Under the pieces are notes generated by a model, which ran no database searches, was not told the origin of the DNA, and worked only from the letters and a program-made list of their open reading frames with translations. Shown here piece by piece: positions 54,309 through 59,295 of a stretch of DNA of 64,000 nucleotides (the first letter of the stretch is position 1; each line of letters opens with the position of its first letter). Source of the stretch: Pseudonocardia sp. EC080619-01 (GTDB lineage: Bacteria > Actinomycetota > Actinomycetes > Mycobacteriales > Pseudonocardiaceae); contig NZ_CP012184.1 in assembly GCF_001420995.1 (NCBI RefSeq), forward strand, positions 3,208,501 to 3,272,500. The letters run 5' to 3'. The translations under genes were made by a program, and so were the position numbers.

Positions 54309-54881
54309 GGGCGGGGGCCGGACGGCGCCGACCAGGCGGAGCGCGAACTCCACCTGCTGCCAGGCCACCTCGTTCTCGGTGGGCCCGGAGTCCTCCCGGA
54401 ACCACACCGCGACCCCCATCCCGAGGTCGAGGATCGCGTACGACGCGAGCCGCGGGTCGGTCACCCGGAACGCGCCGCGGTCGGTGCCGTCGGCGACCAG
54501 GGACCGGAAGCGCCGCTCGTACTCCGTGCGCAGCCCGACGACCTCGGAGCGGCGGGGCTCGACGAGGCTGCGCAGCTCGCGGGTCCCGACGAACGCCTCG
54601 CGCCGGTGCCGGGCGTGGAAGCGGACGTGCGCGTCGACCGCCCGGCGCAGGCGCTCCACCGGATCGTCCACACCGGACACAGCCGTGTCGTGCTCGCGGA
54701 GCAGCGCGGTCATCGTCTCCTCGATCACCGACGCGAGCAGGTCCTGCTTGGAGCTGACGTGCTTGTAGAGGCTGGGGCCGCGCATGCCCACGGCCGCGCC
54801 GATGTCGGCCATCGTCGTCGCCTCGTAGCCGCGGACGGCGAACTGCTCCAGCGCCGCCGCCCGGATCTCCGCCTCCCGCAC
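54297..54881 (-). CDS. TetR family transcriptional regulator of the adjacent acyl-CoA dehydrogenase operon
   Basis: 194 residues. Helix-turn-helix at about 5-50 (EIRAAALEQFAVRGYEATTMADIGAAVGMRGPSLYKHVSSK-type, with PSLYKHV as the recognition helix), then an all-helical TetR_C-like domain. GTG at 54881 follows GGGAG. It is divergent from the acyl-CoA dehydrogenase at 54987 and a dyad operator lies between them, the classical TetR repressor layout (FadR/PsrA-like, acyl-CoA-responsive is inferred). Confidence 0.9.
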   Translation of the reverse strand: MREAEIRAAALEQFAVRGYEATTMADIGAAVGMRGPSLYKHVSSKQDLLASVIEETMTALLREHDTAVSGVDDPVERLRRAVDAHVRFHARHRREAFVGTRELRSLVEPRRSEVVGLRTEYERRFRSLVADGTDRGAFRVTDPRLASYAILDLGMGVAVWFREDSGPTENEVAWQQVEFALRLVGAVRPPPSPQ

Positions 54882-54947
54882 GGCTCCCAGTGTATAGCCC
54901 GGATGTGACGTGGGTCGGCACCTACTTGCGCAGAGCTGCGACGATGG

Positions 54948-54967
54948 TGGCTAATTATCATTAGCCA
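54948..54967. promoter_or_regulatory. TetR-type operator TGGCTAAT-N4-ATTAGCCA
   Basis: Perfect 8-bp inverted repeat around TATC, the most AT-rich spot for kilobases, 19 bp before the acyl-CoA dehydrogenase start and 66 bp from the TetR start. It overlaps a possible -10 region (CTAATTAT), so binding would block transcription. AGGAGGAG just downstream is the dehydrogenase ribosome-binding site. Confidence 0.75.
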
Positions 54968-54986
54968 ATCATCATCAGGAGGAGAC

Positions 54987-56168
54987 ATGGCCGTCGACTT
55001 CACCCTCGACCCTCAGGTGGCCGAGCTCGCCGAGCGCACGTCCCGGTTCGTCCGGGAGACGGTGATCCCGGTCGAGGAGGCGCACGACGGCGTCGTCCCG
55101 TCCGAGGACGTCCGCCGCGAGCTGCAGGACGGGGCCCGCGCCGCCGGGGTGTTCGCGCCGCACGCGGCCGTCGAGTTCGGCGGGCACGGGCTGGACATGC
55201 GCGCCCGCGCCGCGGTGTTCGAGGAGGCCGGCTACTCGCTGCTCGGGCCGCTCGCGCTGAACATCGCCGCCCCCGACGAGGGCAACGTCCACATGCTCGA
55301 GCAGATCGCCACCGAGGACCAGAAGGTCCGCTACCTGGCGCCGCTGGCCGCCGGCGACGTCCGCTCCTGCTTCGCCATGACCGAGCCCGCCCCCGGTGCA
55401 GGCTCCGACCCGGACGCGCTCGCCACCGTCGCCACCCGGGTCGACGGCGGCTGGCGGATCGACGGGCACAAGTGGTTCATCACCGGTGCGGACGGCGCGG
55501 CGTTCGCGATCGTCATGGCCCGCACCGCCGGCGTCCCCGGCGAGCGCGGCGGGGCGACGATGTTCCTGGTCGACGCGTCCAACCCGGGGATGAAGATCGG
55601 CAGGCACATCCCGACGCTGGACGAGTCGCTCTACGGCGGCCACCTCGAGGTCGAGTTCTCCGACTGCCGGGTCGGCGACGACGCCGTGCTCGGCGAGGTC
55701 GACCAGGGCTACCGCTACGCCCAGGTCCGGCTCGGCCCGGCCCGGATGACGCACTGCATGCGCTGGCTGGGTCTCGCCCGCCGGGCGCAGGACATCGCCG
55801 TCGCCCGGGCCGCGGACCGGAAGCTGTTCGGGTCCCGGCTGGCCGACCTGGGCATGGCGCAGGCGATGGTCGCGGACAACGAGATCGACCTGCACGCCTC
55901 GCGCGGCCTGATCCTGCGGGCCTGCTGGGAGCTGGACCAGGGGCGCAGTGCCGGGATGGAGGTGTCGATCGCGAAGACCTTCACCGCGGAGGCCGTGTGG
56001 CGGGTCGTCGACCGGTCGCTGCAGCTCTGCGGCTCGCTCGGGGTCTCGGGGGACATCCCGCTCGGGCGGTTCCTGCGCGAGGTGCGCCCGTTCCGGATCT
56101 ACGACGGCCCGTCGGAGACCCACCGCTGGTCGATCGCCAAGCGCGTCGTGGGGCGGGCGACCCGATGA
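54987..56168 (+). CDS. Acyl-CoA dehydrogenase (ACAD10/11-like subgroup)
   Basis: 393 residues. FAMTEPAPGAGSDPDAL near residue 130 and DGHKWFITGADGAAFAIVMART near 158 are the FAD/substrate motifs; helical domain after about 235 with KLFGSRLADLGMAQAMVADNEIDLHASR. At the usual catalytic-base position the sequence reads YDGPSETHR near 371, so Asp rather than Glu precedes Gly, a feature of the ACAD10/11-type subgroup rather than of straight-chain dehydrogenases. Followed in overlap (ATGA) by a phosphotransferase of the kind fused to such dehydrogenases in animals. Confidence 0.9.
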   Translation: MAVDFTLDPQVAELAERTSRFVRETVIPVEEAHDGVVPSEDVRRELQDGARAAGVFAPHAAVEFGGHGLDMRARAAVFEEAGYSLLGPLALNIAAPDEGNVHMLEQIATEDQKVRYLAPLAAGDVRSCFAMTEPAPGAGSDPDALATVATRVDGGWRIDGHKWFITGADGAAFAIVMARTAGVPGERGGATMFLVDASNPGMKIGRHIPTLDESLYGGHLEVEFSDCRVGDDAVLGEVDQGYRYAQVRLGPARMTHCMRWLGLARRAQDIAVARAADRKLFGSRLADLGMAQAMVADNEIDLHASRGLILRACWELDQGRSAGMEVSIAKTFTAEAVWRVVDRSLQLCGSLGVSGDIPLGRFLREVRPFRIYDGPSETHRWSIAKRVVGRATR

Positions 56169-57175
56169 GCCCCGACGGTCTCGACCTCCACGCGCTCGAC
56201 GGCTTCCTGAAGGAGCACGTCGACGGCTACCGCGGCGGCGTCACCGCGGAGCTGGTCTCCGGCGGCCGGTCCAACCTGACCTACCGGGTCACCGACGGCG
56301 AGTCGGTCTGGGTGCTCCGCCGCCCGCCGCTGGGGAACCTCACCCCGTCGGCACACGACATGGGCCGCGAGTACCGGTTCGTCGCCGCCCTCGCCGGGTC
56401 CGGGGTGCCGGTCGCCCCGGCCGTCGCACTGGCCGACGAGTCGGTGATCGGCGTGCCGTTCGCCCTCACCGGATTCGTCGACGGCGTCGTGGTCCGCAGC
56501 GAGGACGACCTCGACGCGTACACCGACGGGCAGGTCCGTGACACCGCGTTCGCGCTGGTCGACACGCTCGCGGCGCTGCACGCGGTGGACGCGACCACCG
56601 GGGCGGTGTCCGGGCTCGGGAAGCCGGCCGGGTACCTGCGCCGCCAGGTCGACCGCTGGTACTCGCAGTGGGAACGGGTGAAGACCCGCGAGCTCGGCGA
56701 CGTCGAGGCCCTCTACGCCCGGCTGGACGCGATCTGCCCGGCCGAGAGCGACGCCGCCGTCGTACACGGCGACTACCGCATCGACAACGCGATCCTCGAT
56801 CCCGCCGACCCGACCCGGATCCGGGCGCTCGTCGACTGGGAGATGGCGACCCTCGGCGACCCGCTCGCCGACCTCGCGCTGCACACGGCCTACGGCGACC
56901 CGGTCTTCGCGCCGGTGCTGGCCGGGTCGGCGGCGTCGACGAGCGCCCGCATGCCGGGTGCCGACGAGCTGGTCGAGCGCTACGTCGCCACCTCCGGGCG
57001 GGAGCCGCGGGACTGGTCGTTCCACCGGGGCCTCGCCTACTTCAAGATCGCGGTGATCGCGGAGGGCATCCACGAGCGGCACGTCCGCGGGGACACCCGG
57101 GGCGACGGCTTCGCGACCGTCGGGGAGGCCACCGCGCCCCTCGCAGCCGCAGGCCTGACGGCCGCGACCACCTGA
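56165..57175 (+). CDS. APH-fold phosphotransferase family protein (ACAD10/11 kinase-domain type)
   Basis: 336 residues with the aminoglycoside-phosphotransferase/choline-kinase fold. N-lobe: GGRSNLTYRVTDGESVWVLRRPPLG near residue 33-58; catalytic loop VVHGDYRIDNAILDP near 199-213; metal-binding DWEMATLGDPLADLA near 224-238; C-terminal AYFKIAVIAEGIHERHVRG near 294. It is not an antibiotic-resistance gene: this subgroup acts in lipid metabolism, and the homologous LvaA/ACAD11 kinase phosphorylates 4-hydroxyacyl-CoA. Translationally coupled to the acyl-CoA dehydrogenase. Confidence 0.88.
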   Translation: MSPDGLDLHALDGFLKEHVDGYRGGVTAELVSGGRSNLTYRVTDGESVWVLRRPPLGNLTPSAHDMGREYRFVAALAGSGVPVAPAVALADESVIGVPFALTGFVDGVVVRSEDDLDAYTDGQVRDTAFALVDTLAALHAVDATTGAVSGLGKPAGYLRRQVDRWYSQWERVKTRELGDVEALYARLDAICPAESDAAVVHGDYRIDNAILDPADPTRIRALVDWEMATLGDPLADLALHTAYGDPVFAPVLAGSAASTSARMPGADELVERYVATSGREPRDWSFHRGLAYFKIAVIAEGIHERHVRGDTRGDGFATVGEATAPLAAAGLTAATT

Positions 57176-57193
57176 CCGCCCCGCGCTTCCCGC

Positions 57194-57890
57194 CGGCGCT
57201 CACCGGACCTGCCGGTGCTCACCGGACCTGCCGGTGCTCACCGGACCCGCGGGCGCCCACCGGACCCGCGGGCGCTCACCGGTTCCGGTGGCGCTGAGGG
57301 GATCCGTCGGTGCCCACGGGCCTGTCGGCGCTCACCGTTTCCGATGGCGCTCACTTCTTCCGTCCGCGCTCGCGCGATCGGGTGAGCGTTGCTGGAACAT
57401 GTGAGCGCGGGGATCCGTCGGGCGTCTGCGGGCCTGTCGGCGCTCACCGCTTCCGGTGGCGCTCACCGCTTCCGGTGGCACTCAGGATCCGGTGGCGCTC
57501 GCAGGACCCGGTGGCGCTCACCGCATCTGCCGGTGCTCACGGGATCCGGGGCGCGGCGTTCACAGACCCTGCCGGTGCTCACCGATCGGTGGCCCTGACG
57601 GGATCGGTCGGCGTCCACGGGTCTGCCGGCGCTCACGGTTTCCGGTGGCGCTCGCCTGTTGTGTCGTCGCTCGTGCGATCGGGTGGGCGTTGCCGGAACA
57701 GGTGAGCGCGGATCGGTCGGCGTCCGCGGGCGTGCTGGCTCTCACGGGACCTGCCGGTGCTCACCGATCGGTGGTCCTGACGGGACCGGTCGGCGTCCAC
57801 GGGTCTGGCGGCGCTCACGGTTTCCGGTGGCGCTCATCTGTTGTGTCGGAGCTCGCCCGATCGCGTGAGCGTTGCCGCAACAGGTGAGCG
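57194..57890. repeat. About 700-bp array of degenerate 19-bp repeats in both orientations, gene-free
   Basis: Most of the gap between two convergent genes is built from units close to CGGTGCTCACCGGACCTGC, sharing the core CGCTCAC (or GTGCTCAC) every 18-20 bp with a variable dozen bases between. In three places the unit is inverted (two GTGAGCG exactly 19 bp apart, e.g. 57382 and 57401). Several units hold small palindromes: CACCGATCGGTG (57580 and 57762 regions) and CACCG-CTTC-CGGTG. A 140-bp block at 57569-57708 recurs at 57751-57890, and an older copy is seen at about 57297-57408. No reading frame is supported. It is not a CRISPR array: there is no constant repeat of 28-37 bp and no unique spacers. 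Confidence 0.85.
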
Positions 57891-57926
57891 TCCTCGGTGC
57901 GGGGTGCGGGGTGCGGGGGCGGTGGG

Positions 57927-58766
57927 TCAGGCGGCCAGGCGGTCGACGCGGCCGGGGCGCGGGCCGATCCGGCCTGTGCCGCCGGGGACGTCCAGGGCGG
58001 CGATCGCGTCCATCTCGTCGCCGGTCAGGGCGAAGCCTGCCAGGTCCCGGTTCTCCGCGATCCGCTCCGGGGTGTCGGACTTCGGCACCGCTACGGTCCC
58101 CCGCTGCAGGTGCCAGCGCAGCACCACCCGGGCCGGGGTGACGCCGTGCCGGCCGGCGATCGCCCGCAGGGCGGGCCCGCCAAGGACCGCGCCGCGGCCG
58201 AGCGGGCTCCACGCCCCTGTGACGATGCCGAGCGCCGCGTGCACCGCGTGCAGGTCCCGCTGCTGGTGGTGCGGGTGCAGCTCGACCTGGTTGACCGCGG
58301 GCGTCGTCCCGCCGAGGCCGCGCAGCCGGCGCAGGTGCGACGGCCGGAAGTTCGAGACCCCGATCGCGCGGGCCGCGCCGTCGGCGAGCAGTTCCTCCAT
58401 CGCGTCCCAGGTGCGCAGGCACGGCTCCAGCTCGTCGTTCGGCCAGTGCACGAGCAGCAGGTCGACGTGGTCCAGGCCGAGCCGGTCGAGGCTCTCGTGC
58501 GCGGAGCGGATCGCGTCCGCCCGGTCGCGGCCGACGTTCCACACCTTGCCGGTCACGAACAGCTCGGACCGGGACAGGCCGGATCCGGCGAGCGCGGCCC
58601 CCACCGCCGTCTCGTTGCCGTAGACCGCGGCGGTGTCGATGCTGCGGTAGCCGCGCGCGAGCGCCTCGGTCACCGCGGCGCGGGCGTCCCGGGACTCGGA
58701 CACGCCGAAGCCGAGGCGCGGCATCGTGGTGCCGTTGTTCAGGGTGATGGTGGCGTCCGGGTGCAC
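57927..58766 (-). CDS. Aldo/keto reductase
   Basis: 279 residues. The catalytic tetrad is complete: Asp44 (SIDTAAVYGNE), Tyr49, Lys74 (VTGKVW) and His107 (LLVHWP). The NADPH-binding C-terminal segment AVPKSDTPERIAENRD near 223 is typical. GTG at 58766 with GAGAGGA upstream is preferred; an upstream ATG at 58889 would add 41 residues of low-complexity sequence. It reduces an aldehyde or ketone with NADPH; substrate unknown. It converges on the repeat array. Confidence 0.9.
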   Translation of the reverse strand: MHPDATITLNNGTTMPRLGFGVSESRDARAAVTEALARGYRSIDTAAVYGNETAVGAALAGSGLSRSELFVTGKVWNVGRDRADAIRSAHESLDRLGLDHVDLLLVHWPNDELEPCLRTWDAMEELLADGAARAIGVSNFRPSHLRRLRGLGGTTPAVNQVELHPHHQQRDLHAVHAALGIVTGAWSPLGRGAVLGGPALRAIAGRHGVTPARVVLRWHLQRGTVAVPKSDTPERIAENRDLAGFALTGDEMDAIAALDVPGGTGRIGPRPGRVDRLAA

Positions 58767-58863
58767 CGGGGTCCTCTCGTCGTCGCACGGCGACGGCGGT
58801 GTCGCGGACTCGTCCCGGGTCAACGGGCCCGGCCGGACCCCGCGTTCCCGGTCGTGGGTCGCC

Positions 58864-59295
58864 TCACCGGTGGTCCGGGTCTCCTCCACCGGCGGCGCGC
58901 TCGTCGATCCGGGCCCGGATGCCCTCGTCGGAGCAGAACCCGCGCCGGGTGCGCTTCAGGCACAGCAGGCCGACCAGCCGTCCGGCCTCGACGACGGCGA
59001 GCCGGCGCCGCCCGGTGGCGGTCATCGTGTCCCAGGCCGTCCGCAGGTCCGCCGACGGCGCGACGACGCGCCCGGCCAGCGTCCCGGACGGCGCGGCGGG
59101 TGCGGCGGGGTCGGCGTCGTCGAGATCGGCCCGCTCGACCACGGAGAGCAGCACGCCGTCGTCGACGACCAGCAGGGCGTGCACCTTGGGGTTGCCGAAG
59201 AAGGTGTGCGCGTCCGCGACGGTGGTCGCCGGGCCGCACGTCTTGGGGAAGGTGTGCATGGCAGCACCGACGGAGGCGTCGACCAGGGTGTCCAT
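58864..59295 (-). CDS. CBS-domain-pair protein
   Basis: 143 residues containing two CBS motifs: FPKTCGPATTVADAHTFFGNPKVHALLVVDDGVLLSVVER near 16-55 and SADLRTAWDTMTATGRRRLAVVEAGRLVGLLCLKR near 82-115. Such stand-alone pairs bind adenine nucleotides and report energy state; partner unknown. The C-terminal tail has CSDEGIRARIDER. ATG at 59295 has AAGGAG upstream. Confidence 0.82.
   Translation of the reverse strand: MDTLVDASVGAAMHTFPKTCGPATTVADAHTFFGNPKVHALLVVDDGVLLSVVERADLDDADPAAPAAPSGTLAGRVVAPSADLRTAWDTMTATGRRRLAVVEAGRLVGLLCLKRTRRGFCSDEGIRARIDERAAGGGDPDHR

Follow-up and report, generated by a model that had tools for sequence, protein, structure and literature searches.

Proteobacteria are the best-known hosts of interspersed palindromic repeats, which there often occur together with a RAYT transposase. 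MITEs and Correia-type palindromic insertions are non-coding, dispersed and lineage-specific and have an inverted-repeat structure, while iteron and operator arrays are built from tandem units of about 19 bp, each a constant box with a variable spacer, and are located at one origin or promoter. REPs are mostly found close to the 3′ ends of genes, in gaps between convergent or codirectional neighbours, and sometimes provide the stop codon; some families are species-specific, some are clustered, and the CGTC REPs are also found without a known transposase (PMC3733652). The main text of that paper mentions neither Actinobacteria nor Pseudonocardia. Here, we analyse a repeat array in a 64,000-nucleotide stretch (the window) of the genome of Pseudonocardia sp. 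EC080619-01.

Results

Tandem Repeats Finder places 19-bp arrays at 57189-57337 (7.9 copies) and 57439-57554 (6.3 copies). The self-identity of the 718-bp array region at a lag of 19 is 0.53, compared with 0.288 ± 0.022 (maximum 0.39) for other stretches of the same size in the window; the 19-bp period and the GCTCAC boxes are far above chance, and both measures confirm the degenerate 19-bp repeat reported in the preliminary description. Self-identity at a lag of 182 is also raised because the region holds longer duplications, three copies of about 154 bp that begin at 57254, 57555 and 57737. Taking 57555-57708 as the reference, the identity is 72% for 57254-57407 and 89% for 57737-57890.

Three four-box dyads make up the whole array (57194-57894). 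In each, the right arm has two boxes, and the left arm is extended by further 19-bp units whose boxes are partly degraded. Dyad 1 (57348-57407; 66-bp match at 57345-57410) reads CGCTCAC-N12-CGCTCGC-GCGATCGG-GTGAGCG-N12-GTGAGCG and is preceded by an extended left arm of tandem CGCTCAC-N12 units (57197-57347). The orientation of the boxes flips at its 8-bp core, GCGATCGG (57374-57381), which is not palindromic because it begins and ends with the same base on one strand (G..G). Dyad 2 (57649-57708; 66-bp match at 57646-57711) has its extended left arm at 57441-57648, and dyad 3 (57831-57890; 66-bp match at 57828-57893) has a shorter one, included in the third duplicated segment (57737-57890). The units had been described as mostly in one orientation with some inverted; the inversion is real, but its placement is ordered, as every inverted unit belongs to the outward-facing right arm of a palindromic core, GCTCRC-8-GYGAGC. 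The strict 19-bp phase said to persist through these units is incorrect: successive boxes start 14 bp apart at all three inversion points (57368 to 57382, 57669 to 57683, and 57851 to 57865), and the phase slips at further places.

The array is non-coding and is not a CRISPR, as originally proposed, and its assignment to no recognised repeat family holds in the sources searched. Rfam covariance models gave no match to the array at E ≤ 1, which sets aside a catalogued RNA; no plasmid match was found, which leaves a plasmid origin without support; and the literature, of which our coverage is partial, yielded no paper on the family. A phage origin was also rejected, the one core match in viral contigs lacking the outer boxes.

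The basic element is not the 19-bp unit but a near-palindrome of about 60 bp. Read from the loci, its anatomy is CGCTCRC-N12-CGCTCRC-(8-bp GATC core)-GYGAGCG-N12-GYGAGCG. The four 7-bp boxes face outward, two on either side of the core, each two forming a direct pair with a spacing of 19 bp, and the ends have the form GGA-CGCTCAC...GTGAGCG-TCC. Used as a query against its own genome (G000; contigs C1, C2 and C3), the array gave 83 matches spread along C1, many of them overlapping and some of the weaker ones resembling unrelated GC-rich repeats (e.g., near 1491224 and 3896128). A covariance model trained on 37 copies found about 40 copies at 23-24 intergenic loci. All of them are on C1, with C2 and C3 empty, a restriction with a probability of about 0.03 from contig size alone. 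Most loci are single dyads. Other large arrays, at 0.94, 1.51, 1.59, 4.61, 5.23, and 5.46 Mb of C1, follow the same plan, some of them extended to the right, and the array in the window is the longest tandem expansion of the family. A plain minisatellite, one of the roles first put forward, fails as a full account, since the four-box palindrome is dispersed over 23-24 loci here and also occurs in three relatives. In most copies, the 8-bp core is not a palindrome: 70 of 100 have C..C or G..G at its ends and 22 have C..G or G..C, counts in which copies are related by descent and hence not independent. We also note a 14-bp palindrome, CGTTCCGCGGAACG, that recurs beside two dyad loci (C1:13513, 13557, and 5462358).

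The preliminary description suggested a search of the unit in this genome and in the Pseudonocardiaceae, and pieces of the array are indeed repeated in many parts of this genome, with the element also present in three relatives. We scanned 390 genomes of the family with the core pattern, allowing up to one mismatch and using the reversed pattern as a control. There were 31 core matches in G000, 18 in G014, 13 in G324, and 5 in G309 (P. ammonioxydans CGMCC 4.1877), and 0-2 in each of the remaining genomes, with no further expansion; the control gave none in any of the four carriers. The identity of G309 follows from the spacings between its core matches, which agree with those of the named record. 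Altogether, 40 dyads were dissected from G000, and 27, 21, and 12 from the three other Pseudonocardia species. Outside Pseudonocardia, core matches in the genome collection are scattered, and those inspected do not have the full four boxes. In an rpoB tree, the carriers fall in one clade, which also includes G320, G002, and G331 with none or one copy each. This distribution requires at least three changes and may reflect one gain and two losses. The single strong copy in G002 sits within a 4.9-kb stretch (L132, L143) that is 98.8% identical to G000, whereas the other stretches compared are about 76-81% identical and rpoB is 95%. In view of this difference, the dyad-carrying stretch was probably exchanged recently between G000 and G002; the same locus in G331 is 95.6% identical. 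As a separate observation, G310 has two similar palindromes, ATCGGGAACCGGGAC...GTCCGGTTCCCGAT, within 40 kb (L303 4322-4364 and L307 16950-16994), which suggests that this genome may have a dispersed palindrome family of its own.

Dyads come and go between species. At the window locus, a PucR-like gene is separated from an aldo/keto reductase gene by the array and by three genes (TetR, acyl-CoA dehydrogenase, and APH; 54325-57156) that form a 2.9-kb block. In G014, these two genes adjoin with about 20 bp between them and no element, and the three-gene block is located elsewhere, also without the element. At five G000 loci (3722092, 3157404, 3514672, 5232447, and 5724421), both flanks align in G014 and the element is absent there. 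Shared loci are 13584, 457718, 1884576, and 3748269 with G014; 3722092, 1884576, and 3748269 with G324; 3157404 with G309; and 4610825-4612597 with both G309 and G324. Many other sites are not common to the carriers. In this turnover, the earlier idea of a decayed mobile element is partly borne out; the age of several sites, which are common to more than one species, means that any mobility may lie in the past. The empty sites are not scarless; because sequence outside the element is also missing and the flanks have diverged, a target-site duplication cannot be read.

Palindromic structure, dispersal and lineage-specific presence would also be expected of MITE-like remnants of an ordinary DDE transposon with terminal repeats matching the boxes (GGACGCTCAC-like ends). 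We regard this as very unlikely. At the loci examined, no transposon with box-like ends was recognised, and no target-site duplications were seen at the empty sites, the flanks of which have diverged. The sole dyad-flanked gene (C1:4611622-4612569; L139 2623-3570) encodes a 316-aa protein with no Pfam or NCBIfam match. Its orthologs in G309 and G324 (86% and 74-75%) occupy the same syntenic locus and are also flanked by dyads, its paralogs (about 45-60%) are widespread in the genus and those examined have no flanking dyads, and no ortholog was found in G014 despite the many dyads there. The same observations leave this gene unsupported as the mobiliser. No mobilising gene or binding protein for the dyads was identified. 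The Y1/RAYT transposase (PF01797) gave no match in G000 or G014, the two carriers searched, and is present in five other members of the genus; a RAYT-mobilised REP is thus unsupported for these two.

The same turnover bears on the proposal that a host protein, architectural or regulatory, binds the dyads, which selection would keep because they organise the chromosome or insulate genes. In its favour, the four boxes are fixed in spacing and point outward around a GATC core, the boxes are retained at shared loci, and the loci are evenly spread along C1 (KS p = 0.96). However, the near-absence of dyads from G320, G002, and G331, close relatives in the same clade, the many sites not common to carriers, and the lack of a common function among the genes beside dyads at the loci checked make this role rather doubtful.

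The array lies between a phosphotransferase (APH) family gene (56165-57175, + strand) and the aldo/keto reductase gene (57927-58889, - strand), so the junction is convergent, as first described. The suggestion that similar arrays be sought at convergent junctions proved fruitful: across the four species, 33 of 80 loci are convergent, whereas the window has 7 such junctions out of 57 (p = 2.5e-4); a further 9 of the 80 are divergent. These gene positions are approximate, as they were predicted by a simple codon-usage caller, and loci shared between species do not count independently. G000 shows the strongest enrichment (14/24). At a few loci, a predicted gene stops inside the element, at the TGA of the inner GTGAGCG box.

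This habit is one argument for the strongest rival to our interpretation, in which the dyads are bidirectional transcription terminators or 3′-end RNA hairpins that replace ordinary hairpins between convergent genes. Dyad RNA folds more strongly than shuffled sequences (z of -2.9 to -10), and the non-carrier G320 has a strong but unrelated hairpin, GTCGTGGAGTGTTGCGTGCG...CGCACGCCGCACTCCACGAC (L302 11356-11400), at the 3722092 junction, which is occupied by a dyad in G000 and G324. At that same junction, however, G014 has neither hairpin nor element, and 9 of the 80 loci are divergent. The dyads do not fit the description of an intrinsic terminator (a GC-rich hairpin followed by a U-tract): they have no U-tract, and the one weak terminator-like match in the array region is away from the dyad stems. 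In addition, the boxes are conserved as sequence, beyond their pairing, and the arms show no covariation, as set out below. On balance, we consider a terminator role unlikely. The transcription barrier listed in the preliminary description is a possible role.

Across all species comparisons, identity is 85-91% at box positions, a value biased upward because the copies were found by their boxes, and 46-68% in the spacers. Pairing between the two arms of a dyad is 76.6%, compared with 76.1% when arms are shuffled among dyads. There is therefore no sign of compensatory change, and it is the box sequence itself that is kept; selection for a hairpin was rejected on this ground, and the palindrome would instead reflect a shared recognition sequence. 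The arm unit follows the pattern GTGAGCG-N4-CGG-R-W-Y-C-S, in which the variable positions favour A-W-C in G000 and G-T-T in G014. The resulting spacer preference (CGGAWCC in G000, CGGGTTC in G014) is species-wide and holds at orthologous sites too: spacer similarity is 0.50-0.58 between orthologous G000 and G014 copies, 0.52 between random G000-G014 pairs, and 0.65 among the G014 copies themselves. Conserved boxes with drifting spacers point to sequence-specific recognition by a protein rather than to selection for an RNA hairpin, and we suggest that the boxes are probably bound by such a protein. Of the roles offered in the preliminary description, a protein-binding array best fits this pattern of conservation.

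Discussion

We propose, with a probability of roughly 0.55, that the array arose by local tandem expansion within a clade-specific, REP/BIME-like family of interspersed palindromes. The family would spread slowly, its boxes would be recognised by a protein, and its arrays would grow by slippage. A sequence-specific DNA-binding protein, either a mobilising enzyme or a host protein, would recognise the boxes as a symmetric assembly. New dyads would arise rarely and be tolerated at the 3′ ends of genes, where individual copies may incidentally serve as hairpins. Slippage or unequal exchange of the 19-bp arm units would enlarge the arrays, and whole segments of about 154 bp would also be duplicated as they grew.

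A related possibility is that the dyads are the sites of a dedicated site-specific DNA-binding or recombination system, new and belonging to this Pseudonocardia clade. The core, usually asymmetric between inverted arms, and the arm shift in G014 would both fit such a system; a species-wide shift is what would be expected if the specificity of the protein changed and the sites then followed. We consider this proposal tentative and, on present evidence, improbable.

A REP-like family of the kind we favour would be of wider use. An actinobacterial four-box family with no RAYT in the carriers checked would offer a natural system in which to study the spread of repeats that have no known transposase. 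Its gains and losses among closely related species and the species-wide change of the arms would add to its value, and comparisons within the clade can draw on a named species (P. ammonioxydans) as well as on near-empty sisters.

Of the known systems, the iteron and operator arrays share with the array in the window its tandem units of about 19 bp, constant box and variable spacer, but the dyads are dispersed over the chromosome and inverted around a core. MITEs and Correia-type insertions resemble the dyads in being non-coding, inverted-repeat, dispersed and lineage-specific; for the dyads, no target-site duplication was seen in the diverged flanks and no parent transposon was found at the loci examined. 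The closest likeness is to REP, BIME, and REPIN sequences (PMC3733652, PMC3116915), as the dyads are short, palindromic, interspersed and intergenic, are found at 3′ ends and sometimes supply a stop codon. They differ from GTAG-tagged REPs in having no unpaired GTAG/GTGG head on a short hairpin and from CGTC-tagged REPs in having no CGTC head; in place of these is a long four-box dyad with an 8-bp GATC core. The direct pairs of boxes 19 bp apart on each side, and the lack of a RAYT in the two carriers checked, further separate the dyad from a REP. With multiple dispersed, intergenic, palindromic copies, the dyads belong among interspersed palindromic repeats in general, and they are best read as a new REP-like family without a known REP transposase.
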